DNA from: Candidatus Thermoflexus tengchongensis
GTDB lineage: Bacteria > Chloroflexota > Anaerolineae > Thermoflexales > Thermoflexaceae
Assembly: GCA_016842085.1 (NCBI GenBank)
Contig: JAEVEX010000040.1
Span: forward strand, 62,001-126,000
Direction of reading: 5' to 3'
DNA: 64,000 nucleotides
Shown: positions 21,449 to 40,445 of the stretch, piece by piece
Numbering within the stretch: the first letter of the stretch is position 1
Layout of the letters: every line of letters starts with the position of its first letter
Notes under the pieces: model-generated
What the model saw: the letters and a program-made list of their open reading frames with translations, nothing else
Told to the model about the DNA's origin: nothing
Database searches by the model: none
Translations under genes and position numbers: made by a program

Positions 21449-22450
21449 TCAACCGGGCGGCCCGCAGGACTCTCGTTCGATCAGCGTTCCCTGGAGCAGG
21501 ATATGCTTTGGGGAAGGTCGGCCCTCCAGGATCTCCAGAAGCATCTCCGCGGCCAGCCGACCCAGCTGCCGGCGGGGCTGGGCTACCGTGGTCAGCATGG
21601 GGGTCACGTAGGTTCCTTCCTCCAGCCCATCGAAACCGATGATGGAGAGATCCAGGGGAACCCGCAGGCCGGCCCGGAGGGCGGCCTTCAGGGCGCCAAT
21701 GGCCGTGAGGTCGTTGTAACAGAACACGGCCGTGGGCCGGGGATCAGCCTCCAGCAGCCGGCGCATGGCCGCCTCGCCGCCCTCCACCCGACCGTCTCCC
21801 TTCACCACCCACTCCGGGCGAAGGGGCAGCCCCGCCTCCCGCAACGCCTGCCGGTAGCCGCGGTAGCGGTCCTGGTTGCTGCGCCCACCCCGACGGCTGC
21901 CGATATAGGCGATCGCCCGATGGCCCAGGCCGATCAGATAGCGGGTGGCGAGGTATCCGCCGTGCACGTTATCCGTGGCCACCGAATAGACATAAGGTCC
22001 CGTCTGGTGGCTGTTAATCAGCACGATGGGGATCTGCAGGGCTTCCAGCATAGGGAGGTAACGGCTTCCGAGGCGGGAGGCGGCCACAATGATGCCGTCC
22101 ACCTGTTTGGCGGCCAGGAGCTCCACGATAGCGCGCTCCTTCTCCGGATCCTCGTGGGACAGGCTGAGGAGGATCCCATAGCCGCGGGCCTGGGCGACCA
22201 TCTCGATGCCCTGGACCACCTCGGTGTGAAAGGGGTCGCTGAGGCGGGTGACCACCACGCCCAGTGTCTGGGTGCGACGGCCCTGGAGGGCCCGGGCCAC
22301 CGGGTTCGGCCGGTAACCCAGGGCCTCCGCGATGGCCCGGATCCGCGCCCGCGTCTCCGGGCGGATCTCCTCGCTATCCCGCAACGCCCGGGAGACCGTG
22401 GTGTGGCTCACCCCCGCCGCCCGGGCGATGTCCTTGATCGTCACGCGCAT
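21449..22450 (-). CDS. LacI family transcriptional regulator of the sugar-uptake cluster
   Basis: 333 residues. The N-terminal helix-turn-helix reads IKDIARAAGVSHTTVSRAL. The hinge helix contains NPVARALQ, and a periplasmic-binding-protein-like sensor domain follows (TQTLGVVVTRL to the end). It is transcribed toward the binding-protein gene 156 bases away, so it probably controls this cluster and itself. Its promoter and a palindromic candidate operator lie immediately upstream. There is no clear Shine-Dalgarno site before the ATG. Confidence 0.93.
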   Translation of the reverse strand: MRVTIKDIARAAGVSHTTVSRALRDSEEIRPETRARIRAIAEALGYRPNPVARALQGRRTQTLGVVVTRLSDPFHTEVVQGIEMVAQARGYGILLSLSHEDPEKERAIVELLAAKQVDGIIVAASRLGSRYLPMLEALQIPIVLINSHQTGPYVYSVATDNVHGGYLATRYLIGLGHRAIAYIGSRRGGRSNQDRYRGYRQALREAGLPLRPEWVVKGDGRVEGGEAAMRRLLEADPRPTAVFCYNDLTAIGALKAALRAGLRVPLDLSIIGFDGLEEGTYVTPMLTTVAQPRRQLGRLAAEMLLEILEGRPSPKHILLQGTLIERESCGPPG

Positions 22451-23317: not shown

Positions 23318-25639
23318 TCAGAGGGATGTAGAGGCAGCCCGCCGGCGACGGACCCATTCGATGGCCCAGATGGCACCCGGGCGCAGATACATGCTGGCTC
23401 GGAAGTCCCCATACTCGTCCCACGCTTCCGGTGTGCGGAACCAGTAGCCTTTCGCCTCATAAGTCACATGGTAAACACCCCAGGCCGTGTGCCACGCTTC
23501 TTCCACCAATCCCCGGGCCAGCATGGCAGAGGCCAGGGCATAGGTCACCCCAGTCCACACCTCCGCCGACTGATTGCTGCAGCGATCCACCGTCCCATCC
23601 GGCCGCATCCCGTTCACTGCCCCCATCCGGCCACTCGCAAAGCGACAAACATTATATTTATAAATCGTGCGGAATGTCTCCAGGATATGCGGCTCTGGGA
23701 CGATGGGTGGGAGCCCCGTGAGATCGGCATACCACTGGCCAGCGAGCTGATCGGCCATGATGCTATCCCGATGGGGGCTCAGCGCATCATACCGATAATA
23801 GCGACCGTTCCACAACAGCGCCTCGAAGGATTCCTGAGCCCGCCGCAGCCAGCCCTCGTATCGCGATCGAGCCTCTGCATCGCCCACGAGATCGGCCATC
23901 CGCGTGGCAGCCTCCAACGCCGCCAGCCACAGTCCTCCACAATAGGCACTCGGCCCCCGCATCGACCACGTGTCATAGGTCTGATCCGGAATCCCCTCGT
24001 TCTCCGGTAATCCATCGGCATCCCGATCGAAGAGCTTCAGGTATTCTAGTGCCATCCGGACCGATGGCCATCCCATCTCGATCAGCTCTCGATCCTCCGT
24101 GAAGACGTAATCCCGATAAAGCAATAAGACGAACTTGCTGTTCAGATCCTTCCAGACGTTTGGATCCTGAAAACGATAGGCATTCGGCATACGCCACGGA
24201 GCCTCAAGGGGAGAGCCTAGATCATGAGGGGCTGCTCCGGAAAGCTTGCGGGGCGCCTGGCTGCTGTTCGATTCGATGGTACGAAGAGTGAGATCGACCT
24301 GAGGGATCGTCGCGATGAAATCCCGCATCACCGCCTTCTCAAGCTCGGGCCAAAGCATGAGCAGCGGGAACGAGCCGTAGAATCGAACATCCAGGGTCTC
24401 ATAGAACGGATAATCATAACACTCGATCTGAGCGAAATGACCCATCCCATCCGCATCCTCCGGATCCACTACCCAGGCGGTGGCCCCATCGGTGATGAAA
24501 TACAGCTCATTAAACAGCGCGGTGAAATACCAGTCCGGCGCGGTAGGATCCGAGAGGACAGCGTGCTGCCAGGATCGGATTTGATCCCGCCAGGTGGCAT
24601 AATGCTCCAGTGCCTCCCGGGCGATCCCCCAGGCGTTGCGCCCGGAGGTCCCGAAGAAACGGGTATAGCGGCGATACCACCGATCCCCGGCTCCGAACTC
24701 CACCATTGGCAGATCCCAGGCCAGGACGATGGGCACCACCTGTCGCTCGCCCGGCTCCAGGCGGAGGGTAATCGCCAGCCCCGCTCCGACCCGCTCGCCT
24801 TCCGGAATCCGGAGGGCGCCGGGGTCACCCTCCAAGCGTCCATCCGTGGCGAAATCCTCCCAGATCTCCGCTCCATCCCCATCGACTCGAAACCGGGCCC
24901 GGTAACTGACCTCAACCCCGGGGATCTCCAGGGCTGCCAGCGCCCAGGATCCATCCCATGGTTCCCGCACCGACCCCTCGCCGCCGAGCATCTCTACCCC
25001 GACCATCCGGCCACCGGCCAGCCGGTCTTCCCGGGGTCGATGGATCCCGCCGCCCGTCGTCCGATGATCCCATCCGTATCCGAGGAGGTTCTGCCAGGTG
25101 AATAGAATCGCGACTGTAAGAGGCTGCACAGTTGGGTTCTCCACAAACCACAAGAACACCGCCACCGGGTAACTGCTTTCCCGGTAATTGTGGGGGATCA
25201 CTGGGGAGAACTGCTCCACCGCCAACCGCACCGGGAGCTGTTCCCACTCGTAGACGAACCACGATCGAGGATATAGGGCGGCATAGAACCCGGCGCCCAC
25301 TGGATACCGCCATTGCCATGCGGACAGCTCGCGCGCCGGTGCCCCCGTCCACAGCGCCTGGGCCAGGCGTCCATCCGGGCTCTCCACAAAGATCGAGAAC
25401 ATGCACGCTGGGAGCGGCTCATAGCGATGACGACCGGGATCCAGATGCCAGCGGGCGAAGTCCCCTCGATAGGTGCGACCGATTGTCCCGGCCCCGATCC
25501 CCCCCAGCGGGGCACCCTGCCAGTACCCATCGTCGATGCTGACGTGCGGTTGCCGAAGCGAGCGCCCGGCGCTCTCCAGCGGCAAGCCGATCGGACGACG
25601 CCATGCTCCCCGTGGGATCTCCAGCACGATGGATGCCAT
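23318..25639 (-). CDS. GH116 family beta-glucosidase/glucosylceramidase-like enzyme
   Basis: 773 residues, similar in plan to the thermophilic GH116 beta-glucosidase family and human GBA2. An N-terminal beta-sandwich opens with LGGIGAGTIGRTYRGDFARW. An (alpha/alpha)6 barrel follows with ITDGATAWV, a mid-domain 'LLYRDYVFTED' stretch, and DQTYDTWSMRGPSAYCGGLW, which carries the acid/base Asp region. It releases glucose from beta-linked substrates. There is no signal peptide, so a cytoplasmic cellobiase or cellodextrinase fits the locus. ATG 25639 has CAGGAGGCAGAC before it. The longer reading from 25813 adds 58 residues overlapping the regulator gene. Confidence 0.88.
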   Translation of the reverse strand: MASIVLEIPRGAWRRPIGLPLESAGRSLRQPHVSIDDGYWQGAPLGGIGAGTIGRTYRGDFARWHLDPGRHRYEPLPACMFSIFVESPDGRLAQALWTGAPARELSAWQWRYPVGAGFYAALYPRSWFVYEWEQLPVRLAVEQFSPVIPHNYRESSYPVAVFLWFVENPTVQPLTVAILFTWQNLLGYGWDHRTTGGGIHRPREDRLAGGRMVGVEMLGGEGSVREPWDGSWALAALEIPGVEVSYRARFRVDGDGAEIWEDFATDGRLEGDPGALRIPEGERVGAGLAITLRLEPGERQVVPIVLAWDLPMVEFGAGDRWYRRYTRFFGTSGRNAWGIAREALEHYATWRDQIRSWQHAVLSDPTAPDWYFTALFNELYFITDGATAWVVDPEDADGMGHFAQIECYDYPFYETLDVRFYGSFPLLMLWPELEKAVMRDFIATIPQVDLTLRTIESNSSQAPRKLSGAAPHDLGSPLEAPWRMPNAYRFQDPNVWKDLNSKFVLLLYRDYVFTEDRELIEMGWPSVRMALEYLKLFDRDADGLPENEGIPDQTYDTWSMRGPSAYCGGLWLAALEAATRMADLVGDAEARSRYEGWLRRAQESFEALLWNGRYYRYDALSPHRDSIMADQLAGQWYADLTGLPPIVPEPHILETFRTIYKYNVCRFASGRMGAVNGMRPDGTVDRCSNQSAEVWTGVTYALASAMLARGLVEEAWHTAWGVYHVTYEAKGYWFRTPEAWDEYGDFRASMYLRPGAIWAIEWVRRRRAASTSL

Positions 25640-25758
25640 GTCTGCCTCCTGATCGATGGATGCGATGATCGGCAGCCCCTCTTCCCCCCATTCGGCGACC
25701 CTGGGAAGGCGCCACCAGCCCGTGGGCCGCGGGAAACCGACGGAACTTATTCTTCGCA

Positions 25759-26838
25759 CTAATAAGGAAATCCAGGCTCGCCCGAATTCCTGGAGGCAAG
25801 ATCGCCGCGCCACTCCGGCATGCCTATCTGCCGCAGCGCTCCGCAGGAGGCGCGGATCACCAGCTCAGTGGGCAGGATCACCCGCTGAGGCTCTCGAACA
25901 TCCTCCTCCAGCTGGTGGAGGAGGAGCTGGACCGCCACACGGCCCAGCTCATAAATCGGCTGGCGCACGGTGGTTAGCGGTGGATCCGTGAACTGGGCCA
26001 GCTCGACATCATCGTAGCCCACGATGGCCATATCCTCAGGGACCCGCAATCCAGCCTCTCGAAGGGCCTTCAGCGCCCCCATCGCCATCAGATCGCTGGC
26101 CACGAACACCGCATCGGGGCGGGCGGAGAGCAAGCGGCGCATCGCCATATAGCCTCCCGCCTCCGTGAAATCTCCTTCCGCAATCCAATCCGGTGATGGG
26201 CGGATTCCCCATGCCTGAAGGGCCGCCCGATAGCCCTCCAGGCGATCAATCCCTGGAGCCATTGTCTGAGGGCCTGCAATGGTAGCCACCCGACGCCACC
26301 CCAGACGCAGGAGATGTTCGGTGGCCATTCGCCCTCCTCCTACATTGTCCGCATCCACATAGCTGACACCCGGCTCTTGAGGATAACGGCCAATACTGAC
26401 TACGGGGAGACCCTCCTCATACGCTCGACGGATCAAGGGATCCGTGACCTGGGCGGAAAGCACAATGATCCCATCCACGACACGCCCGCGGAGGGCGCGT
26501 TGATAGAAATCCTCCTCCTGAGGAGGAGAGAGGAGGGAGAGCATCAGGTGATACCCCCGCTCCATCAGTGCATCGAAGATCCCTCGCAACACAGCGGGGA
26601 AATACGGATCGCTGAAGACCTTCGGGATGGTTTCAGGGATCACGACACCCACAATCTGACTGCGCCGCGTGACCAGATTGCGGGCCGCCGCATGGGGTTG
26701 ATAGCCCACCTCTCGGATGATCCGCCAGACCCGCTCCCGCACTTCCGGGCGCACATTCGGATGATGGTTGATCACCCGGGAGACTGTCGATCGGGATACC
26801 CCCGCCAGTCGAGCAATTTCTTCCAACGTGTAGTTCAT
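25759..26838 (-). CDS. LacI family regulator of the cellulose locus (CebR-like)
   Basis: 359 residues. The helix-turn-helix is LEEIARLAGVSRSTVSRVI, the hinge region has PHAAARNLV, and a sugar-sensor domain follows. CebR of actinomycetes is a LacI-family repressor that releases TGGGAGCGCTCCCA when cellobiose or cellodextrins bind. The same 14-mer occurs at 27155 in front of the importer gene, and a related palindrome lies upstream of this gene. GH116 follows 119 bases downstream on the same strand, so both may share a transcript. The assignment to a CebR-like function is inferred from operators and neighbours, not from overall similarity. Confidence 0.88.
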   Translation of the reverse strand: MNYTLEEIARLAGVSRSTVSRVINHHPNVRPEVRERVWRIIREVGYQPHAAARNLVTRRSQIVGVVIPETIPKVFSDPYFPAVLRGIFDALMERGYHLMLSLLSPPQEEDFYQRALRGRVVDGIIVLSAQVTDPLIRRAYEEGLPVVSIGRYPQEPGVSYVDADNVGGGRMATEHLLRLGWRRVATIAGPQTMAPGIDRLEGYRAALQAWGIRPSPDWIAEGDFTEAGGYMAMRRLLSARPDAVFVASDLMAMGALKALREAGLRVPEDMAIVGYDDVELAQFTDPPLTTVRQPIYELGRVAVQLLLHQLEEDVREPQRVILPTELVIRASCGALRQIGMPEWRGDLASRNSGEPGFPY

Positions 26839-26853
26839 TCGCCTTCCTCCATG

Positions 26854-26869
26854 ATGAGAGCGCTCTCAT
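26854..26869. promoter_or_regulatory. Palindromic operator upstream of the cellulose-locus regulator
   Basis: Perfect 16-bp palindrome ATGAGAGCGCTCTCAT, 15 bases before the regulator's ATG. It shares the core GAGCGCTC with the operator at 27155-27168. Binding here would block or stall transcription of the regulator and GH116. Confidence 0.75.
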
Positions 26870-26972: not shown

Positions 26973-27001
26973 ATTCTAATCGGATTAACAAATCGCGTCA
27001 A
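26973..27001 (-). promoter_or_regulatory. Promoter of the cellulose-locus regulator
   Basis: On the minus strand TTGACG (27001-26996), 17 bases and TAGAAT (26978-26973). This predicts a start near 26966 and a leader of about 130 bases that includes the operator at 26854-26869. Confidence 0.55.
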
Positions 27002-27118: not shown

Positions 27119-27147
27119 TTGACAAAATACCCCATTTATGCTATAAA
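27119..27147 (+). promoter_or_regulatory. Promoter of the cellodextrin importer/cellulase genes
   Basis: TTGACA (27119-27124), a 17-base spacer and TATAAA (27142-27147), one base from the vegetative consensus. The expected transcription start, about 27154-27155, coincides with the first base of the CebR-type operator. Confidence 0.8.
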
Positions 27148-27154
27148 CCTGTTC

Positions 27155-27168
27155 TGGGAGCGCTCCCA
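27155..27168. promoter_or_regulatory. CebR-type operator TGGGAGCGCTCCCA
   Basis: Perfect 14-bp palindrome identical to the operator described for CebR, the cellulose-utilisation repressor of Streptomyces and relatives. It spans the predicted +1 to +14 of the importer promoter, where bound repressor would block initiation. Confidence 0.85.
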
Positions 27169-27303: not shown

Positions 27304-29103
27304 ATGAAGCGCCTGAGCCTGCTGCTCGCTTACCTGGTTGTCATCGCAGGGATGCTGTTGACCGCCTGTCAAGCGGCACCCTCACCCACCCCCTCGCCCA
27401 CCGCCGCGCCTGCTACCCCGCCGCCGGGGCCTACGCCAACCGCCGCCCCTCCTCCAGCCACCCCGACGCCCGCTGCAGTCGTCTATTCGCGTGAGGAGAC
27501 GCTTTACACCAGCGGCACCCAGTGGGGCCCCCCCTCCAACTGGAACCCGCTCCAAACCGGCACGTATGCGATGGGAACCATCGGCCTCTGCTATGAAACC
27601 CTCTTCCTCTACGATCCATTGAAGAACGAATACATCCCATGGCTGGCCGAGAAGGGCAACTGGACCAGCGACAACGTCTATGAGGTGAAGCTCCGCCAGG
27701 GGATCACCTGGGCGGATGGACAACCTATGACTGCCGAGGACATCGTCTACACATTTGAGTTGGGCAAGCTGGAGGGCGTCTACTACAAGCCGCTTTGGGA
27801 TTACTTGGAGAAGGTGGAGGCCGTGGACAACCTCACGGTCCGCTTCACCTTCAAGGAAGTGCACCATCAGGCATGGAGCAACCTGTTGTATTCAGTAGCC
27901 ATCGTCCCCAAGCATGCTTGGCAGGGGCGCTCCCAGCAGGAGATCGTCAACGGTCAGAACCTGCCTCCGCTGTGCTCTGGTCCCTATGTCTACGAGACCC
28001 ACTCCGAGGATCGGGTGGTCTGGAAGCGCAACGATAACTGGTGGGGGACCAAGCTCCTGGGCAAATCGGTAGCGCCACGCTACATCGTGGATGTGGTCAA
28101 CCCCAGCAACAACGTGGCGCTGGGCTTGGTGCTCAAGGGCGAGGTGGACCTGAGCAACAACTTCCTGCCAGGGATCGCCACGCTGGTCCAGGGCGGCTAT
28201 GGTGTCAAGACCTGGTATGACAAGCCGCCTTACATGCTCGCGGCGAACACTGCCTTCCTGTTCGTGAACCACAACAAGAAGCCCTTGAACGATGCCAATT
28301 TCCGAAAAGCCCTCGCCTATGCCATCAACGTGGATGAAATTGTGAACCGGGTCTACGGCAACATCGTTCAGAAGGCGAACCCGACCGGCCTGCTCCCGGT
28401 CTGGGAGCGCTTCGTGGATCAGAACGTCGCCCAGTCGCTGGGCTTCTCCTATGACCCCAACCGGGCCAAGCAGATCCTGGCCCAGGCCGGGTATCGGGAT
28501 ACCAATGGGGATGGCTTTGTGGAAGCGCCAGACGGGTCCCCGATCCAGCTGAAGATTATCGTCCCGAACGGTTGGACGGACTGGATGGAGGCGGCCAAGG
28601 TGATCGCCAGCAGCGCCCAGGCGGTGGGGATCAATCTCCAGGCGGACTTCCCGGACTTCGGCGCCTACTGGGATCAGCTGACGGGCGGCACCTTCGATAC
28701 GGCCATCAACAACTTTGGCTCCCAGATGAGCAACACGCCGTGGACCTTCTACCTGTGGCTGTTCCGGCACCCCATCACCGACAAGATGAACGATGGCAAC
28801 TATGGCCGCTATAACAATCCCCAGGTGTTCGACCTGGTGGATCAGCTGGATCGGACACCTGTGACGGATGAGGCGCGGATGAAGCAGATTATCAGCCAGA
28901 TCCAACGGATCCAGCTCCAGGAGATGCCGGCCATCCCGCTCTGGTATAACGGCCTGTGGGCTCAGTGGAACGAGACCTACTGGACCAACTGGCCATCCGC
29001 GGCAGAGGGCGCGCCCAAGTATCTGCCGTGCACCTGGCGGGGTTACTGGAATATGACGGCTATCTTGATGCTGACGGAACTGAAGCCCAAGCCGAAGCGG
29101 TAG
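27304..29103 (+). CDS. Oligosaccharide/peptide ABC transporter substrate-binding lipoprotein (family 5)
   Basis: 599 residues. The signal peptide ends LLTAC with lipobox Cys22, followed by a Pro/Ala/Thr tether (about 24-55). The family 5 (DppA/OppA-type) fold is seen in SNWNPLQ, the YDPLKNEYIPWLAEKG region, VKLRQGITWADGQPMTAED, and FRKALAYAINVDEIV. Family 5 proteins of thermophiles such as Thermotoga bind cellobiose and other beta-glucans, and the surrounding cellulases suggest the same here. It is the first gene behind the operator-controlled promoter. Its permeases and ATPases are encoded 7.5 kb downstream, after the cellulases. Confidence 0.92.
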   Translation: MKRLSLLLAYLVVIAGMLLTACQAAPSPTPSPTAAPATPPPGPTPTAAPPPATPTPAAVVYSREETLYTSGTQWGPPSNWNPLQTGTYAMGTIGLCYETLFLYDPLKNEYIPWLAEKGNWTSDNVYEVKLRQGITWADGQPMTAEDIVYTFELGKLEGVYYKPLWDYLEKVEAVDNLTVRFTFKEVHHQAWSNLLYSVAIVPKHAWQGRSQQEIVNGQNLPPLCSGPYVYETHSEDRVVWKRNDNWWGTKLLGKSVAPRYIVDVVNPSNNVALGLVLKGEVDLSNNFLPGIATLVQGGYGVKTWYDKPPYMLAANTAFLFVNHNKKPLNDANFRKALAYAINVDEIVNRVYGNIVQKANPTGLLPVWERFVDQNVAQSLGFSYDPNRAKQILAQAGYRDTNGDGFVEAPDGSPIQLKIIVPNGWTDWMEAAKVIASSAQAVGINLQADFPDFGAYWDQLTGGTFDTAINNFGSQMSNTPWTFYLWLFRHPITDKMNDGNYGRYNNPQVFDLVDQLDRTPVTDEARMKQIISQIQRIQLQEMPAIPLWYNGLWAQWNETYWTNWPSAAEGAPKYLPCTWRGYWNMTAILMLTELKPKPKR

Positions 29104-29122
29104 ACCCCCATGCCCCCGATTC

Positions 29123-29173
29123 GTTCCCCCTGGGGGCCTGAGCGAGGGGCCCCCAGGGGGAACCAGTGTTTTT
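29123..29173 (+). terminator. Rho-independent terminator or attenuator after the binding-protein gene
   Basis: Perfect 16-bp stem (29123-29138 with 29148-29163) and a nine-base loop, then five T's at 29169-29173. Placed directly after the binding-protein stop, it would make that transcript far more abundant than the downstream genes. Confidence 0.8.
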
Positions 29174-29223
29174 CAGGACGAGGGAAGCCTGAAATAGGTC
29201 TAACCGGTCCCGCGGAGAAAGGG

Positions 29224-30408
29224 ATGATCACCCTGGAATGTGCTGTGATCGACCGAGGCCCTCTTTTCCGGGAAGCCTTAGAACGATCGCTGGAGTCCAT
29301 TCCGAAGCGGGAGCATGTGGAGATCCGCTGGACCTGGCTCAGCTGGCCTGCTGCTTGGTCTGAGTTCGTGCAGCGCATTGTTCATCGCACAGCCCCCGAT
29401 GTGATGGAGCTGGGATCCACGTGGGTGCCCACCTTCCGCGCAATGAACGCCTTGCGACCGTTCTCCCCCTCCGAAATCCGTATGCTGGGAGGAGTGGATC
29501 GATTCCTGCTGCCGCTATGGCGATCAGCCCGCAGTGAGGAGATGACATGGGGGATCCCATGGCTCGCAGATCTCCGGCTTGTCTTTTACCGCAAGGATGC
29601 CCTTGAGAGAGCTGGGGTAGACGAGCGTGCTTTCCGAATGTTCAAGGATCCGACAGAGTTTGAACGCATGTTGCGCGACTTGTCCGCCCGGCAATCGCTA
29701 CGCCCATGGGTGGTCCCTACCACGCCGGAACGAAACACGCTTCACCATATCGCCAGCTGGGTCTGGTACTACGGTGGTGATTTCGTGAAGCCCGATGGAA
29801 CCCTGGCTTTCGCTGAGGAACCGGCCCTGCGGGGCATCTGCGCCTACTTCCGCTTGGGACCCCTCATGGGATGCCCGATCCCTCGACTCCATGCGGAGCA
29901 AGCGGACCAGATGTTCTGGGAGGGACACGCTGCTGCGACCATCGGGGGATGGTGGATCTGGGACTACGCCGGGGATGCCCTGCGCCCTTACATCGGCTTG
30001 GCCCTTCCTCCAGGCCCACCCTTCCTCGGCGGATCGCTGTTAGGGATGTGGCGGGAAACGCGAGTTCCTAACGAGATCCTGATCGCTGTGCTGGCCCGTA
30101 TGGTTCATCCGGATACGCTCTTGAGGATCACCCGTATCCCCGGTACACCGCTGCCCGCCCAGCCCGATCTCCTCATCGAACGGGTAGCGAATCTGCCACA
30201 GCCAGACTTGGAAATCATGCGAACCGGGATGTATTACTCGAACACCTTCCCATCATTCTCATTATTCGGGGTAATAGAAGACCGATTAACAGACACACTT
30301 GGAAAGATATGGGCGGAGATTATGAATTGCCCGGAGGATATTGAGTCGATTGTTCGATCTCATTTGAGGCATGCTTACTCTGCGATCCGCCGCGCAATTT
30401 CCTCGTAA
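29224..30408 (+). CDS. Family 1 solute-binding-protein-like protein without signal peptide
   Basis: 394 residues that look like a periplasmic sugar-binding protein: RTAPDVMELGSTWVPTF, WGIPWLADLRLVFYRKDALERAG, ASWVWYYGGDFV, FWEGHAAATIGGWW and a C-terminal helical end. Yet it begins MITLECAVIDRGPLF, with no hydrophobic leader and no lipobox Cys. Reading further upstream does not add one either. GGAGAAAGGG precedes ATG 29224. It could be a cytoplasmic sugar sensor or chaperone-like partner of the locus, or a binding protein that lost its export signal. It lies between the importer binding protein and the cellulases. The function is not known to me. Confidence 0.75.
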   Translation: MITLECAVIDRGPLFREALERSLESIPKREHVEIRWTWLSWPAAWSEFVQRIVHRTAPDVMELGSTWVPTFRAMNALRPFSPSEIRMLGGVDRFLLPLWRSARSEEMTWGIPWLADLRLVFYRKDALERAGVDERAFRMFKDPTEFERMLRDLSARQSLRPWVVPTTPERNTLHHIASWVWYYGGDFVKPDGTLAFAEEPALRGICAYFRLGPLMGCPIPRLHAEQADQMFWEGHAAATIGGWWIWDYAGDALRPYIGLALPPGPPFLGGSLLGMWRETRVPNEILIAVLARMVHPDTLLRITRIPGTPLPAQPDLLIERVANLPQPDLEIMRTGMYYSNTFPSFSLFGVIEDRLTDTLGKIWAEIMNCPEDIESIVRSHLRHAYSAIRRAISS

Positions 30409-33184: not shown

Positions 33185-33360
33185 CTTTCCTCACGATTTA
33201 ACCGTATCCTGAGCGGTTGATTTATAGCACAATTTGTGCCCTTGGGAACTTCAGGCTACTTGGGTGCTCTCCGGAGGATTTTTTAATTCGCTTGAGATCA
33301 GGAACCCCTTCCCTCGGCCCTTAAGGAGCACTCAATCTGCGATCCATTAGGGAGGTGGCC

Positions 33361-35961
33361 ATGACCTCAAATCAGATCCGACGCGGAATACTCGTATTGG
33401 TGGCCTTTCTCGGGTTGACGATTGCTATAGCGCTGCTTCTGACCCCATCCCAACCAGCGAAAGGAAACACTAATATCTACATTAATCGATTTATTGAACT
33501 ATGGAATGAGCTACATGATCCAACTAATGGATATTTCAGTCCACAAGGGATTCCTTATCATTCGGTTGAAACCCTAATTGTTGAAGCGCCTGACTATGGG
33601 CATGAAACCACCAGCGAAGCCTACAGTTATTGGGTCTGGCTAGAAGCGATGTATGGACATCTCACAGGCGATTGGTCTTATTTACAAAATGCATGGAACA
33701 GCATGGAAACTTATATCATACCCACACATGCTGATCAACCAAACAACAATTGCTCCTACAAAGCCACCTATGCACCAGAAGGCGATTTTCCCAGCGATTA
33801 TCCGGTCGCATTGGATCCGAATGTGAGCGTAGGAAACGATCCGATTTGCAATGAATTGGCCCAAACCTATGAGACCTCGGATATTTATGGTATGCACTGG
33901 CTGCTGGATGTAGACAACTGGTATGGTTACGGGCAGCGAGGTGATGGGGCCAGTAAACCCTCTTATATTAACACCTTCCAGCGAGGTCCTGAGGAATCGG
34001 TATGGGAAACGGTGCCCCACCCTTCTTGGGAAGCCTTTCGATGGGGTGGAGCCAATGGTTTTCTGGATCTCTTCATCCGGCAGCCATCGGGATGGCAATA
34101 CGCCCAGCAATATCGTTACACCGATGCTCCCGATGCGGATGCTCGGGCAATTCAGGCTATATATTGGGCTAAGCGGTGGGCAGATGCCCAAGGCGGCTCG
34201 CCTGTTGTCGATAGCTTGACACGCAAAGCCGCCAAGCTGGGAGACTACTTACGCTACGCTTTCTTTGATAAATATTTCAAAGTCATCGGGTGTAATAGCC
34301 CCTCCTGTCCCGCTGGCACTGGATACGACAGCGCTCACTATCTGCTTTCTTGGTATTATGCTTGGGGCGGCCCGACGAGCGGCGGTGGATGGGCCTGGCG
34401 CATTGGCTCAAGCCATGTGCACTTCGGTTATCAGAACCCAGTAGCAGCCTGGGCGCTGAGTCAGATATCGGCCCTCCGCCCATCCTCCCCACGGGGTGCT
34501 GCCGATTGGGCCACGAGCTTGAACCGCCAGCTTGAGTTTTATCGTTGGCTTCAATCGACAGAAGGGGCTATTGCTGGCGGCGCCACCAACTCCTGGAATG
34601 GTCGCTATGACCCGCGACCCGCTGGCGTCTCTACGTTCTATGGCCTCGCCTATGTCGAACATCCAGTCTATCACGATCCCGGTAGTAACACATGGTTCGG
34701 ATGGCAAGCCTGGTCCATGGAGCGAGTGGCTGAATATTATTACCTGACCGGCGATCAGCGGGCTGGTGAGATACTTAACAAGTGGGTGGCCTGGGTGAAG
34801 AGCGTGGTTCGATTGCTGCCTAATGGCGATTATGAAATTCCGGCCACGCTGGCCTGGAGCGGACAACCAGACCCATGGAATCCCAACAACCCCGGCCCAA
34901 ACAGCAATCTCCATGTCACGGTTGTGGCCTATAACAAAGATGTGGGGATTACCGCGTCTCTGGCCAGGGCACTCACGTATTATGCAGCTGCCACGGGCGA
35001 TACTGGTTCCCAGCAGCTGGCCAAAGAGCTGTTAGATCGAATGTGGAACCTTTATCGTGATGAGAAGGGTGTATCTGCACCCGAGGTACGTGAGGACTAT
35101 CGTCGTTTCAACGATGAAGTTTACATCCCTGCAGGATGGATGGGCACAAACGCGCAGGGTGCTATTATCCAGCCAGGCATCACTTTTATCGGAATACGAC
35201 CGAAGTACTTGCAAGATCCGGATTGGCCTAAGGTGCAGGCTTATCTCAACGGCGGCCCAGCGCCTGAATTCCGCTACCATCGTTTCTGGGCCCAAGTTGA
35301 AGTGGCCTTGGCCAATGCTGTCTATGGGGAGCTTTTGGGCGGTGGTGTGACCCCAGCACCGACCTCCACGCCGGCCACCCCTGTTGCCACATCGACACCG
35401 CCGGCCCAGCCTACCGCCACCCCCACGCGCACGCCCACGCCGGTGGCGCCCACCGCCACCCCCACCCCGAGCAGTGGCAGCGTCTGCCAGGTCGCCTACA
35501 CCGTGACCAACCAGTGGCCCGGCGGCGCCACCGTGAACGTGACAATTACCAACACCACCAGCAGCCCCATCAACGGCTGGACGCTGGAATGGGACTTCCC
35601 CAACCCCAGCCAGCAAATCACCAACCTCTGGAACGGCTCCTACTCCCAAACCGGACAGCACGTGACAGTGACCAATGCCGCCTGGAACGGAACAATCCCA
35701 GCCGGCAGCTCCGTAACCTTCGGATTCAACATGAGCTGGAACGGATCGAACCCGGCGCCCAGCAGCTTCACCCTGAACGGACAACCGTGCGGCGGCACCG
35801 CCAGCGGCGGCCCCCAGCCCACCCCCACGCCCACGCGCACGCCCACACCGGCGGCACCTACCGCCACCCCCACGCCAACACCGGGCAGTGGTCCGAACCT
35901 GAGGATCAACCCACAAGGTTTCGCAGGCGCGGGCGCTCGGTTATCGGGCGGCCGTTCTTGA
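33361..35961 (+). CDS. Secreted GH48-CBM2 cellobiohydrolase with truncated C-terminal extension
   Basis: 866 residues with a signal peptide (about 1-35) closely resembling that of the GH12/GH6 enzyme. The GH48 catalytic domain runs from about 37 to 655 and opens with [17 protein letters not shown]. In [18 protein letters not shown]86 matches the proton donor and E75 the second conserved Glu. GH48 enzymes release cellobiose from reducing ends and are the hallmark of true cellulolytic bacteria. A Pro/Thr linker, CBM2 (about 709-810) and a second linker follow. The frame then runs for about 15 residues into sequence belonging to a GH5 domain and stops. ATG 33361 follows GGGAGGTGGCC. Confidence 0.93.
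35436..35875. repeat. CBM2-linker DNA repeat, copy B
   Basis: Partner of 31261-31700 in the same orientation. Recombination between the two would delete or duplicate 4175 bases and reshuffle the catalytic domains. Confidence 0.9.
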
Positions 35962-36607
35962 AGTTCACGACACGACCGGCTACGGAGAAGACGCAGCAGC
36001 GTGTTCGATGACGACGGCGGTCAATTATTGGATTGAACTGAAGAGCGTGCTGGCGGGTCAGGAGAATTTCGTGATCGTCAATATCGGCAATGAACCGTAC
36101 GGGAACAACAATTATCAGAACTGGGTGACGGACACGCGGAACGCGATACAGGCGCTGCGGAACGCGGGGATCAACAACACGATCATGGTGGACGCTCCGA
36201 ACTGGGGTCAGGACTGGTCGTTCACGATGCGGGACAATGCACCGACGATTTTCAACGCGGACCCGCAGAGGAACCTGGTGTTTTCGATCCACATGTACGG
36301 GGTGTACGACACGGCGGCGGAAGTGCAGAGCTATATTCAATCGTTTGTAAACCGCGGTTTGCCGCTGGTGATCGGGGAATTCGGCTATATGCATACTGAC
36401 GGGGATCCGGACGAACAGGCGATCGTGCAGTATGCGAAGCAGTATAACATTGGGCTGTTCGGCTGGTCGTGGAGCGGTAACGGAGGCGGCGTGGAATATT
36501 TGGATATGGTAGTGAACTTTGATGCGAACCGCCCGACGCCGTGGGGGACATGGTTCCGGGCGAACGCGATCGGGACATCGATGGTCAACATGGGCGGCAG
36601 CCCTTGA
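35921..36607 (+). pseudogene. GH5 (beta-mannanase type, GH5_8-like) catalytic domain remnant
   Basis: In a different frame from the GH48 reading, the sequence continues [20 protein letters not shown], then NIGNEPYGN (acid/base Glu) and VIGEFGY (nucleophile Glu), to a normal end PWGTWFRANAIG. The HDTTGYGE segment is characteristic of bacterial GH5 subfamily 8 mannanases. The first strands of the barrel, roughly 70-90 residues, are missing, and the junction with the GH48-CBM2 linker is out of frame. An ATG at 36008 could start a 199-residue fragment, but it would lack the first part of the barrel. Probably a former third catalytic module or neighbouring gene joined by deletion. Confidence 0.75.
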
Positions 36608-36684: not shown

Positions 36685-37671
36685 TTGGCACGGTATCTGA
36701 GCCGTAAATTGATGATCTATATCTTCACCTTTTTCGTGGCGGTCACGATCGACTGGTTGATTCCTCGCCTGATGCCTGGGAATCCAGTGGACATCATGGT
36801 CTCCCGGATGGCTTTGCGTGCGGATGTGGCGGAAGTGATGCGAAGCTACTACTTGCGAGCATTTCAGCTGGATCTTCCCCTTTGGCAACAATATCTCAAT
36901 TTCTGGGCTGCCCTGCTCCGAGGCGATCTGGGGATCAGCATCTGGCTGTTCCCTCAGCCTGTCCTCTCCGTGATTGCCCGGGCCGTTCCTTATGATCTTT
37001 TTCTTCTTGTTCCAGCGATCCTGCTGAGCTGGATTCTCGGAAATCAGATTGGGGCCATGGCCGCGCGCGTTCGCTGGCTGGATAATACCATCCTCCCTCT
37101 CGGCTATATCCTGACGGCTACACCTTATATGTGGTTGGCCCTCTTGCTGGCCTGGGCCTTGGGGCACGTCGTCAAGATCTTCCCCATCGCTGGGGCCTAT
37201 AGCTTCAACATACGGCCCCATCTTTCATGGCTCTTCATCAAAGACCTCTTGTGGCACTGGTTCCTCCCCTTTCTCTCTTTATTTCTGGTCATGTTTGGCG
37301 GCTGGGCCATCGGCATGCGAAACATGATCATCTACGAATTGGAAGCGGAGTATTCACGATACCTGGGCTCTCTTGGCGCCTCCCAACGTCTCATCCGACG
37401 CTATGCGTTCCGGAACGCCATACTGCCTCAGATCACCGGGCTCGCCTTACAGCTGGGCGCAATTGTCGCTGGGGCCGTCGCAACTGAAATCGCCTTCGCT
37501 TATCCAGGAACCGGATATCTGATCCTGCAGGCTGTCCAAAACCAAGATTACTTCCTGTTGCAGGGGTGCTTTCTGTTCATTATCACGGGTGTTTTGCTTG
37601 CCAATTTCGTGATCGATATCATCTACACGCTGGTAGATCCCCGAACCCGCCTCGGCATGGTAGGGGAATGA
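36685..37671 (+). CDS. Oligosaccharide/peptide ABC transporter permease (DppB/OppB type)
   Basis: 328 residues with six membrane spans and the DppB-type order: an N-terminal span (DWLIPRLMPGNPVD), a periplasmic helix region (LDLPLWQQYLNFW, LLRGDLGIS), and a conserved loop YLGSLGASQRLIRRYAFRNAILP that contacts the ATPase. The start is TTG 36685 with AAGGAGAGAGAGCC before it; no ATG is better placed. It overlaps the next permease region closely. A decayed paralogue is at 43415-45231. Confidence 0.92.
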   Translation: MARYLSRKLMIYIFTFFVAVTIDWLIPRLMPGNPVDIMVSRMALRADVAEVMRSYYLRAFQLDLPLWQQYLNFWAALLRGDLGISIWLFPQPVLSVIARAVPYDLFLLVPAILLSWILGNQIGAMAARVRWLDNTILPLGYILTATPYMWLALLLAWALGHVVKIFPIAGAYSFNIRPHLSWLFIKDLLWHWFLPFLSLFLVMFGGWAIGMRNMIIYELEAEYSRYLGSLGASQRLIRRYAFRNAILPQITGLALQLGAIVAGAVATEIAFAYPGTGYLILQAVQNQDYFLLQGCFLFIITGVLLANFVIDIIYTLVDPRTRLGMVGE

Positions 37672-37694
37672 TCACTACCGTAGGGGGGGAAGCA

Positions 37695-38543
37695 ATGGGA
37701 AGCCGTTCGGAGCTCCTCTATTTCGCGTGGCGCAATGTGAAATTGCGCATCGGCCTGGGGATCCTGCTGGTGTTCACCTTGGCCGCTTTGATCGGCCCGT
37801 ATTTCGCTCACCACGACCCGAATGCATATGTGGGACCGCCAGGATATCCCCCCTCCGCGGAATACTGGTTGGGGACCACCACCTTCGGCCAGGATGTCTA
37901 TTCTCAGTTCGTGCATGGGCTTCGCTCAACGTTTGTTGTGGGCCTTCTGGGAGGTGGAATTGGTACCATATTAGGTGTGTGTATCGGGCTGCTGGCGGGT
38001 TATCGGGGAGGATGGGTGGATGAGATCTTGAACATGTTCACGAACATCATCTTGATCCTGCCCACCCTGGCGGTCCTGATCATCATCGCCGCTTATCTGA
38101 CCGTGCGCGGGATTGTGGTTGAGAGCATCTTTATTGGCTGCACTTCATGGCCATGGGCCGCCCGAGCCATTCGGGCCCAGACGTTCTCCCTGCGCGTTCG
38201 TGAGTTCGTGGATCTGGCTCGGATGAGCGGACGGGGGACGTTGAAGATCATGCTCACCGAGATCGCTCCCAACATGATGTCTTATCTCTTCATGGTGTTC
38301 ATTCTCCAGTTCGGCGGTGCGATCCTGAACGCGGCCACGCTGGATTTCATCGGACTAGGCCCCACCCAGGGGGTCTCCTTGGGGTTAATGCTGAACAATG
38401 CGGTGCTCTGGGCTGCTCTCCAGCTGGGGATGTGGTGGTGGCTGATCCCACCTGGAGCCGCTATCACCGCCATCGTCGGCGCTTTATATGTGATGAATGT
38501 GGGCCTCGATGAGATCTTCAACCCCAAGCTCCGCGAATTGTGA
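37695..38543 (+). CDS. Oligosaccharide/peptide ABC transporter permease (DppC/OppC type)
   Basis: 282 residues. DppC-like features are the N-terminal span, the FAHHDPNAYVGPPGYPPSAEYWLGT segment (in two parts), TTFGQDVYSQFVHGLR, six spans and an EAA-type loop (VDLARMSGRGTLKIMLTEI). ATG 37695 has GGGGGGAAGC before it. An alternative ATG at 37668 overlaps the upstream stop by four bases and would add nine residues. It pairs with the DppB-type permease. Confidence 0.92.
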   Translation: MGSRSELLYFAWRNVKLRIGLGILLVFTLAALIGPYFAHHDPNAYVGPPGYPPSAEYWLGTTTFGQDVYSQFVHGLRSTFVVGLLGGGIGTILGVCIGLLAGYRGGWVDEILNMFTNIILILPTLAVLIIIAAYLTVRGIVVESIFIGCTSWPWAARAIRAQTFSLRVREFVDLARMSGRGTLKIMLTEIAPNMMSYLFMVFILQFGGAILNAATLDFIGLGPTQGVSLGLMLNNAVLWAALQLGMWWWLIPPGAAITAIVGALYVMNVGLDEIFNPKLREL

Positions 38544-38552
38544 GGGAAAGCC

Positions 38553-39503
38553 ATGGCGCTCCGAGTGGAGAATCTGCGTATCTACTATCGCACTCTTCAT
38601 GGATACGTCCACGCCGTGGAAGGGGCTACCTTCTCCGTCCGCGATGGTGAAATTATGGGGCTGGCCGGGGAATCCGGCTGCGGGAAGACAACCCTGGGCC
38701 ATAGCCTGGTCTATATGAAGCCTCCAATGATTTATATGGAAGGGAAAGTCTTCCTGGATGGGCAAGAGCTTCCCATCTGGGATATGCGACGCATGAACGA
38801 GTTCCGCTGGCGCCTTGTCTCGATTATCCCCCAGTATGCGATGAATGCGCTGAATCCCACCCGTCGTATCGGACATCTCATCGCAGATCTGTTGGCCGAG
38901 CGAGGCTTGAGCTACAAGCATGTCCTACCTGAGCTGAAGCGAAGGCTGGATCTGGTTCAGCTTTCACCAGAGGTTCTAGATCGATATCCCTTCGAGCTAT
39001 CCGGAGGGATGCGTCAGCGAATGGTCATGGTGATCTCAACGCTGTTAAATCCGTCGCTGCTCATCGCCGATGAGATCACTTCCGCCCTGGATGTTTCTAC
39101 CCAGAAAGCAGTATGCGAAATGATTATCGAGTTCCGCAATCGCGGGTTTGTTCGCAGCACTATTTTCATTACTCACGATATGTCCATCCTTTATCAGATC
39201 GCCGATACGGTTCTGGTGATGTATGCTGGGCAGCTCGTCGAGAAGGCTCCGGTCGAGGAGATCTTCCGGTCTCCACGCCATCCATACACGCGTATGCTCA
39301 TCGCGGCTCTCCCACGAGTCGGGGCGCGGCAGCGAACGGAGCGCCTGCGGGGGATTCCGGGATCCCCGCCCCGGTTATTGGATCCGCCGCCCGGATGCCG
39401 CTTTCGGGACCGCTGCCCGGTCGCTTTCGAGCGTTGCACAGAGACTCCCCCGTTCGTTGAGGTAGAGCCGGGCCATTTCGTAGCCTGCTGGCGGGAGATC
39501 TGA
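38553..39503 (+). CDS. Oligosaccharide/peptide ABC transporter ATP-binding protein (OppD type)
   Basis: 316 residues. Walker A is GESGCGKTT (39-47), the signature is ELSGGMRQRM, Walker B is LLIADEITSALDV, and the H-loop is IFITHDMS. The C-terminal oligopeptide-transporter domain has the cysteine pattern PGCRFRDRCPVAFERCTE, which binds an Fe-S cluster in some homologues. Ten bases separate it from the permease gene, and three from the next ATPase gene. Confidence 0.93.
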   Translation: MALRVENLRIYYRTLHGYVHAVEGATFSVRDGEIMGLAGESGCGKTTLGHSLVYMKPPMIYMEGKVFLDGQELPIWDMRRMNEFRWRLVSIIPQYAMNALNPTRRIGHLIADLLAERGLSYKHVLPELKRRLDLVQLSPEVLDRYPFELSGGMRQRMVMVISTLLNPSLLIADEITSALDVSTQKAVCEMIIEFRNRGFVRSTIFITHDMSILYQIADTVLVMYAGQLVEKAPVEEIFRSPRHPYTRMLIAALPRVGARQRTERLRGIPGSPPRLLDPPPGCRFRDRCPVAFERCTETPPFVEVEPGHFVACWREI

Positions 39504-39506
39504 ACA

Positions 39507-40445
39507 ATGCTCGCCCTGGAGAATGTGACTAAGATCTATCGGACCGGTGCCCTGGGCCTCCGTAGGCTCACCGCAGTCTCAGAGGTCAGCTTCGAGATCG
39601 GTGAGCGGGAGATCGTCGCCCTGATCGGAGAGAGCGGAAGCGGCAAAAGCACGATCGGCAAGATGATCCTCCGGCTCCTGCGCCCCACCTCGGGGACCAT
39701 CCGCTTCGAGGGCCAGGACATCTTCGCCTTGAACGGCCGAGCGGTCAAGGATTACTACCGTAAGGTTCAGGGGGTCTTCCAGGATCCCTTCGCCTCTTAT
39801 AACCCGATCTTCAAGGCCGATCGGATCTTCGCGCTGATCCGCGAGGAGTTCTTCCCCCATCTCAGCCGAGCTCAGTGGGAGCAGAAAGTGGAGGAGGCAT
39901 TAAGGGCCGTTGGCCTGAACCCGCCCGATGTCCTGGGCAAATACCCCCACCAATTGAGTGGCGGGCAGCTCCAGCGCTTCCTGATCGCCCGCGCCTTGCT
40001 ACTGGATATCCGGCTGCTGGTGGCCGATGAAATCATCAGCATGCTGGATGCCTCCACCCGCGTGGATGTGCTGAATCTGTTGGGGGACCTGCGGGAGCGA
40101 GGGCTCTCGATCCTCTTCATCACCCACGATCTCTCGCTCGGGCACTATATCAGCGATCGGGCCATCGTCCTCTACCGGGGGCGCATTGTGGAGATGGGAC
40201 CGACGGAGCGCGTGTATGCCCGGCCTCTCCACCCATACACTGAGATGCTGATGGCTTCCGTTCCGCGGATCGATCAGAAGTGGGCTCGCCAGCCAGCCCG
40301 TATGGAGCAGTCCGTTACCCCGGGACCGACCGGATGTGTCTACTACGGGCGGTGTCCCATCGCCCAGGAGATTTGCAGCCGGCGCATGCCGGAACTGGTG
40401 GAGGTGGAAGCCGGCCACTATGTCGCATGCTTTATGCGATCTTGA
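39507..40445 (+). CDS. Oligosaccharide/peptide ABC transporter ATP-binding protein (OppF type)
   Basis: 312 residues. Walker A is GESGSGKST (41-49), the signature is QLSGGQLQRF, Walker B is LLVADEIISMLDA, and the H-loop is LFITHDLSLG. The C-terminal cysteine segment is GCVYYGRCPIAQEIC. The OppD signature motif of the partner and this one are both intact, so both nucleotide sites should work. It ends the importer set that begins with the binding protein at 27304. Confidence 0.93.
   Translation: MLALENVTKIYRTGALGLRRLTAVSEVSFEIGEREIVALIGESGSGKSTIGKMILRLLRPTSGTIRFEGQDIFALNGRAVKDYYRKVQGVFQDPFASYNPIFKADRIFALIREEFFPHLSRAQWEQKVEEALRAVGLNPPDVLGKYPHQLSGGQLQRFLIARALLLDIRLLVADEIISMLDASTRVDVLNLLGDLRERGLSILFITHDLSLGHYISDRAIVLYRGRIVEMGPTERVYARPLHPYTEMLMASVPRIDQKWARQPARMEQSVTPGPTGCVYYGRCPIAQEICSRRMPELVEVEAGHYVACFMRS

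Follow-up and report, generated by a model that had tools for sequence, protein, structure and literature searches.

A LacI-family protein, P0001, encoded in the 64,000-nucleotide stretch of Candidatus Thermoflexus tengchongensis DNA analyzed here (the window), is very probably a CebR/CelR-type repressor that acts on two operators, O1 and O2, is released by cello-oligosaccharides, and controls an operon for oligosaccharide import and cellulose degradation. What the sequence shows directly, and what this assignment draws on, is the presence and conservation of the sites, the protein-site pairing, and the gene content of the operon. In the mechanism we propose, a P0001 dimer would occupy O1 (about +1 to +14) when inducer is absent, blocking initiation of a unit encoding the SBP_5 binding protein, the SBP_1-like protein, GH12-CBM2-GH6, GH48-CBM2, and OppBCDF. 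P0001 would also occupy O2 in its own leader as a roadblock, tuning expression of lacI and the GH116 gene. A cello-oligosaccharide, most likely cellobiose, would enter via the importer and release P0001. P0001 binding, the inducer, the initiation block, the O2 roadblock, and transcription of the operon as one unit are the parts of this model that we infer. The features of the locus, in window coordinates, are as follows.

23318 to 25708, minus strand: gene of GH116 beta-glucosidase type, downstream of the regulator gene (its start is uncertain, the longest ORF running from 25813)
25759 to 26838, minus strand: putative CebR/CelR-type LacI-family repressor P0001, recognition helix SRSTVSR
26855 to 26868, no strand assigned: operator O2, TGAGAGCGCTCTCA, located in the lacI leader and abutting the Shine-Dalgarno sequence
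26973 to 27001, minus strand: predicted promoter of the lacI-family gene, TTGACG-N17-TAGAAT, with a comparable promoter in relatives
27119 to 27147, plus strand: promoter of sigma-70 type for the cellulase/importer operon (TTGACA-N17-TATAAA; extended -10, TGC)
27155 to 27168, no strand assigned: operator O1, TGGGAGCGCTCCCA, spanning the predicted transcription start
27304 to 29103, plus strand: SBP_bac_5 oligosaccharide-binding lipoprotein, closest to the Thermotoga-type sugar binders 4pft, 1vr5, and 4pfu
29110 to 30408, plus strand: SBP_bac_1/8-like protein without apparent signal peptide (ORF and domain match)
29123 to 29163, plus strand: G+C-rich hairpin of 17 pairs, directly after the binding-protein stop codon
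30371 to 33130, plus strand: GH12-CBM2-GH6 cellulase (domain matches)
33355 to 35961, plus strand: GH48-CBM2 cellobiohydrolase-type cellulase (domain matches)
36008 to 36607, plus strand: C-terminal remnant of a GH5 cellulase (domain match)
36685 to 40445, plus strand: Opp-type permeases and ATPases (OppB, 36685 to 37671; OppC, to 38543; OppD, 38553 to 39503; OppF, 39507 to 40445)

A CebR/CelR operator at the start of the importer/cellulase operon

The -35 element TTGACA (27119 to 27124) and the -10 element TATAAA (27142 to 27147) are separated by a 17-nt spacer ending in TGC, and 7 nt (CCTGTTC) lie between TATAAA and TGGGAGCGCTCCCA, which spans roughly positions +1 to +14 of the predicted operon transcript. 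An automatic promoter scan skipped this promoter because its rule demands T as the last -10 base. The original prediction had placed the palindrome seven bases after this promoter and equated it with the actinobacterial CebR site. Both statements were borne out: promoter and operator are conserved in the five genus members that encode the regulator, and the sequence matches the published CebR/CelR box exactly, the 14-bp operator TGGGAGCGCTCCCA of the LacI-family repressor CebR of Streptomyces (S. scabies and SirexAA-E) being identical (PMC5332605, PMC4898821) and lying here at the controlled promoter.

The suggested genome-wide search for the 14-mer returned, rather than many unrelated loci, a single exact copy in the 3.9-Mb genome, at O1 (∼0.04 expected from base composition). 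TGRGAGCGCTCYCA has two exact matches genome-wide, at the O1 and O2 loci. We inspected the surroundings of eight other genomic matches with two or fewer mismatches; these lay mostly within ORFs, and no evident promoter was found beside any of the eight. A wider regulon in this genome was therefore rejected, and whereas Streptomyces CebR governs a dispersed regulon with many sites, here a single locus is involved.

Among nine genomes of the genus, including that of the window, five encode a regulator orthologue and four do not. Both operators were present in the lacI/binding-protein intergenic region of 5/5 genomes with the orthologue and 0/4 without it. In the alignment of this region across the five genomes, the operon promoter, both operators, and the Shine-Dalgarno sequence are kept, and little else.

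O2 is a leader operator of the regulator gene

The variant palindrome that had been predicted just before the regulator is present at 26855 to 26868, with 16 nt separating it from the ATG start codon of the minus-strand gene. It does not, however, lie at the promoter, but ∼104 nt downstream of it in the window. Since the conserved lacI promoter, which scores 10 to 11 of 12 in each of the five genus genomes, is located 57 to 136 nt upstream across these genomes, and O2 abuts the Shine-Dalgarno sequence, O2 is a leader site and not a promoter site. Among the loci compared, perfect sites outnumber TGAGAGCGCTCTCA by 30 to 3 at promoter starts and by 14 to 10 elsewhere (P = 0.009, phylogeny ignored). 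This bias, which is not an affinity measure, is compatible with TGAGAGCGCTCTCA being a weaker autoregulatory site. Imperfect boxes in Streptomyces are described as bound more weakly (PMC5332605), and in Catenulispora TGAGAGCGCTCTCA itself is the main site (PMC3377646). Graded control by two site strengths, as originally proposed, is plausible, with the site bias the one observation that suggests it.

Leaders of lacI genes in other families (L126 to L154) have the order promoter, operator, ∼59 nt with a T-run, second operator, Shine-Dalgarno sequence, and lacI, with the operators often 70 to 76 bp apart. Of 24 two-site leaders, 15 had a T-run between the operators, where 2.7 were expected. As an explanation for related leaders, terminator-based attenuation was weak (7/45 versus 2.9 expected) and was set aside. 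Control by a riboswitch or other Rfam element was likewise rejected: no Rfam element or riboswitch was detected in the window, and the sampled related loci yielded just one tRNA and one CRISPR repeat.

The same repressor and sites could instead trap both divergent promoters in a DNA loop between O1 and O2, in the style of gal or lac, with O2 serving as an auxiliary operator. The two operators do flank both promoters in 5/5 genus members, and the 70- to 76-bp spacing common in other families corresponds to about seven helical turns. However, the O1-O2 distance is exactly 300 bp in the window and 265, 265, 251, and 192 bp in the other four genomes, with no common helical phase, and by eye the C-terminal tail of P0001 has no leucine-repeat tetramerization helix of the LacI type. 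We consider looping improbable; a roadblock at O2 would fit better because the distances share no helical phase.

Content of the operon and identity of the inducer

The cellulase genes are placed between the binding-protein gene and the permease genes. By gene content alone, the operon fits CebR/CelR control of cellulases and/or a cello-oligosaccharide importer: in Streptomyces, CebR controls GH6, GH48, GH12, and GH5 cellulases together with the importer (PMC5332605, PMC4898821), and the content here is similar. The importer differs, as Streptomyces uses CebEFG. In place of a CUT1-type importer with SBP_bac_1, as in CebEFG-MsiK, the window encodes an SBP_bac_5 protein and an Opp-type OppBCDF. 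OppF was called from its ORF translation and used as a tblastn query; OppB, OppC, and OppD were also called from domain searches. The original division of the locus into importer versus regulator plus GH116 holds insofar as the importer is present, but it overlooked the GH12-CBM2-GH6 and GH48-CBM2 cellulases on the importer side.

The cellulases are not part of the regulon common to the genus. In three relatives (G122, G159, and G010) OppBCDF comes after the binding-protein gene and cellulases are missing; G010 also has an SBP_1-like remnant. GH48 occurs in 4/298 genomes of the class and, within the genus, in this genome alone; no operators were found within the fetched flanks of the other GH48 genes of the class. 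Because the genus relatives have no GH48, the common genus regulon is import plus GH116, not cellulose breakdown. Either this genome acquired the cellulase block or the relatives lost it; in both cases the block lies downstream of the importer's operator.

These observations bear on the inducer. The best solved relatives of the SBP_bac_5 protein, which we take to be Thermotoga proteins, are sugar and oligopeptide-type binders, and beta-mannobiose is also conceivable as the inducer because one of these chains is named as mannoside binding. P0001 might accordingly sense a beta-mannan or mixed-glucan oligosaccharide, with the cellulases as passengers under its operator, a reading with which the importer and GH116 without GH48 in regulator-bearing relatives would agree. 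It is nevertheless unlikely, as the operon also encodes GH6, GH48, GH12, and CBM2, families directed at cellulose, and the nearest solved homologue of P0001 is taken here to be a cellobiose-responsive CelR. We thus retain a cello-oligosaccharide as the probable signal.

Several further features of the operon were noted. The hairpin at 29123 to 29163 overlaps the longest-ORF start of the following SBP_1-like gene, whose true start is probably downstream of it. The hairpin is a possible partial terminator or processing signal that could determine how much binding protein is made relative to the other products and could separate expression of the cellulases from that of the first operon gene. Homologues of the SBP_1-like protein are encoded near lacI in several families (L127, L129, L132, and L155); a cytoplasmic or accessory role is suggested for the protein. 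At 35900 to 36607 in the window, what is left of the GH5 cellulase is a C-terminal piece that follows the GH48-CBM2 ORF in a different reading frame. A recombination event or an assembly join is possible, because the operon's two CBM2 coding stretches are 97.8% identical over 450 bp.

P0001 and its relatives across the class

P0001 contains a LacI-type helix-turn-helix (PF00356) and a periplasmic-binding-protein-like sensor domain (PF13377), both above cut-offs. Its closest PDB chain is 5ysz (E = 6.5e-85; next chain, 2.6e-60), which we take to be Thermobifida fusca CelR, presumably cellobiose responsive, although the search tool names it merely as a LacI-family regulator. This closest solved sequence has the TVSR recognition helix and the palindrome in common with P0001. 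Cellobiose dissociates T. fusca CelR from DNA (PMC3377646), and a corresponding response is inferred for P0001, whose Chloroflexota orthologues form their own clade. In a tree of 126 sequences, this clade is sister to actinobacterial CebR/CelR and apart from the other LacI paralogues of the genome, although the joint Chloroflexota/Actinomycetota clade came from a quick tree search and has an SH-aLRT value of 87, under the starred level. By sequence and by tree, P0001 is thus closest to characterized CelR/CebR.

Recent transfer from Actinomycetota is not favored, given the sister-clade position of the Chloroflexota orthologues, with just two Acidimicrobiia sequences nested inside. These two actinomycete (Acidimicrobiia-type) regulators, L043 and L044, are accompanied by one-mismatch operator forms, pointing to putative inter-phylum transfer. 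As originally proposed, the operator code is common across phyla, since the pairing of CebR/CelR-type protein and site occurs in both Chloroflexota and Actinomycetota. CelR-like sites are also known in other Actinobacteria: in Catenulispora acidiphila, TGAGAGCGCTCTCA precedes the genes of a putative importer of cellobiose (PMC3377646), being the main site there but the secondary site (O2) here.

Across 298 genomes of the class, TGGGAGCGCTCCCA occurred in 94 copies in 53 genomes, and its reversed control in none. The 14-mer was present in 36/48 genomes with a P0001 orthologue and 17/250 without (Fisher P = 3e-23, with no phylogenetic correction). Outside one 9.8-Mb Chloroflexota genome (G199), 52/72 listed sites were within 600 bp of a LacI gene of the clade. 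At 49/68 loci, a promoter scoring 10 to 12 of 12 ended 0 to 12 nt upstream of the operator, whereas 0/810 shuffles reached a score of 10. The recurrence of this pairing across the class indicates, at the level of genome comparison, that it is real and functionally informative. A G+C-rich inverted repeat arising by chance and lacking any regulatory role, which the chance-level frequency of three-mismatch near-matches in the window might hint at, is for practical purposes ruled out as an explanation of the palindrome by the uniqueness of the exact site, its conservation in relatives at a promoter start, and the class-wide control of 0. In G199 (L233 to L247), 17 exact 14-mers lie near assorted genes, one of them inside a polyketide-synthase-like ORF; given these surroundings, they are not supported as a cellulose regulon.

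A broader reading, which we offer as a tentative and rather doubtful one, is that Chloroflexota and Actinomycetota share an ancient cassette made up of the CebR/CelR repressor and its operator, and that in Chloroflexota the leader of the regulator gene adds another operator, tuned differently and adjoining the ribosome-binding site, to form a two-operator autoregulatory device. A T-run, sometimes terminator-like, is found between the operators in several families, and such a device for actinobacterial CebR is not described in the literature examined.

The regulon offers a handle on cellulose regulation in a Chloroflexota group where GH48 is rare (4/298 genomes), and the CebR box can serve to mark cello-oligosaccharide regulons outside Actinomycetota. 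No published Chloroflexota CebR regulon was found in the literature searched, which mostly excluded subscription papers. The occurrence of CebR/CelR control here in Chloroflexota is well supported, and this type of switch is already known; its mechanism is unsurprising, and its use lies in annotation and in a specificity series.

Recognition helices and operators vary together

Within one clade, recognition-helix switches and the operators that match them form a natural series. Helix RS (RS..R, with TVSR) occurs with TGRGAGCGCTCYCA, RA with TGAGAGCGCTCTCA, RT (TASR) with TGGAAGCGCTTCCA, PA with TGAAAGCGCTTTCA-like sites, and KA with TGAAACCGGTTTCA. Most actinobacterial helices have RG or RA, whereas that of P0001 has RS. 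Camas et al. (2010) described a LacI recognition code in which residues 15 and 16 (their numbering) in the TVSR helix set operator bases irrespective of evolutionary distance (PMC2978694). The local series RS, RA, RT, PA, and KA is consistent with such a code, and the sharing of operators between phyla follows from common ancestry together with it. The other LacI paralogues of this genome have other helices, and their palindromes, where found, differ (e.g., TGCACACGTGTGCA and CTAACACGTGTTAG). A second LacI-family gene in the window (21449 to 22450), beside a sugar ABC transporter, has the palindrome CGCACACGTGTGCA just before its start; because this palindrome differs, we predict no cross-talk between its product and P0001. 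Upstream sites were not detected for L182, L196, and L200, although the RSR helix is kept. Relative to the RSR clade, the helix of L159 and L160 has changed from RS to PA, and L159 has TGAAAACGCTTTCA/TGAAAGCGCTTTCG in place of TGGGAGCGCTCCCA, making it a putative natural specificity swap.
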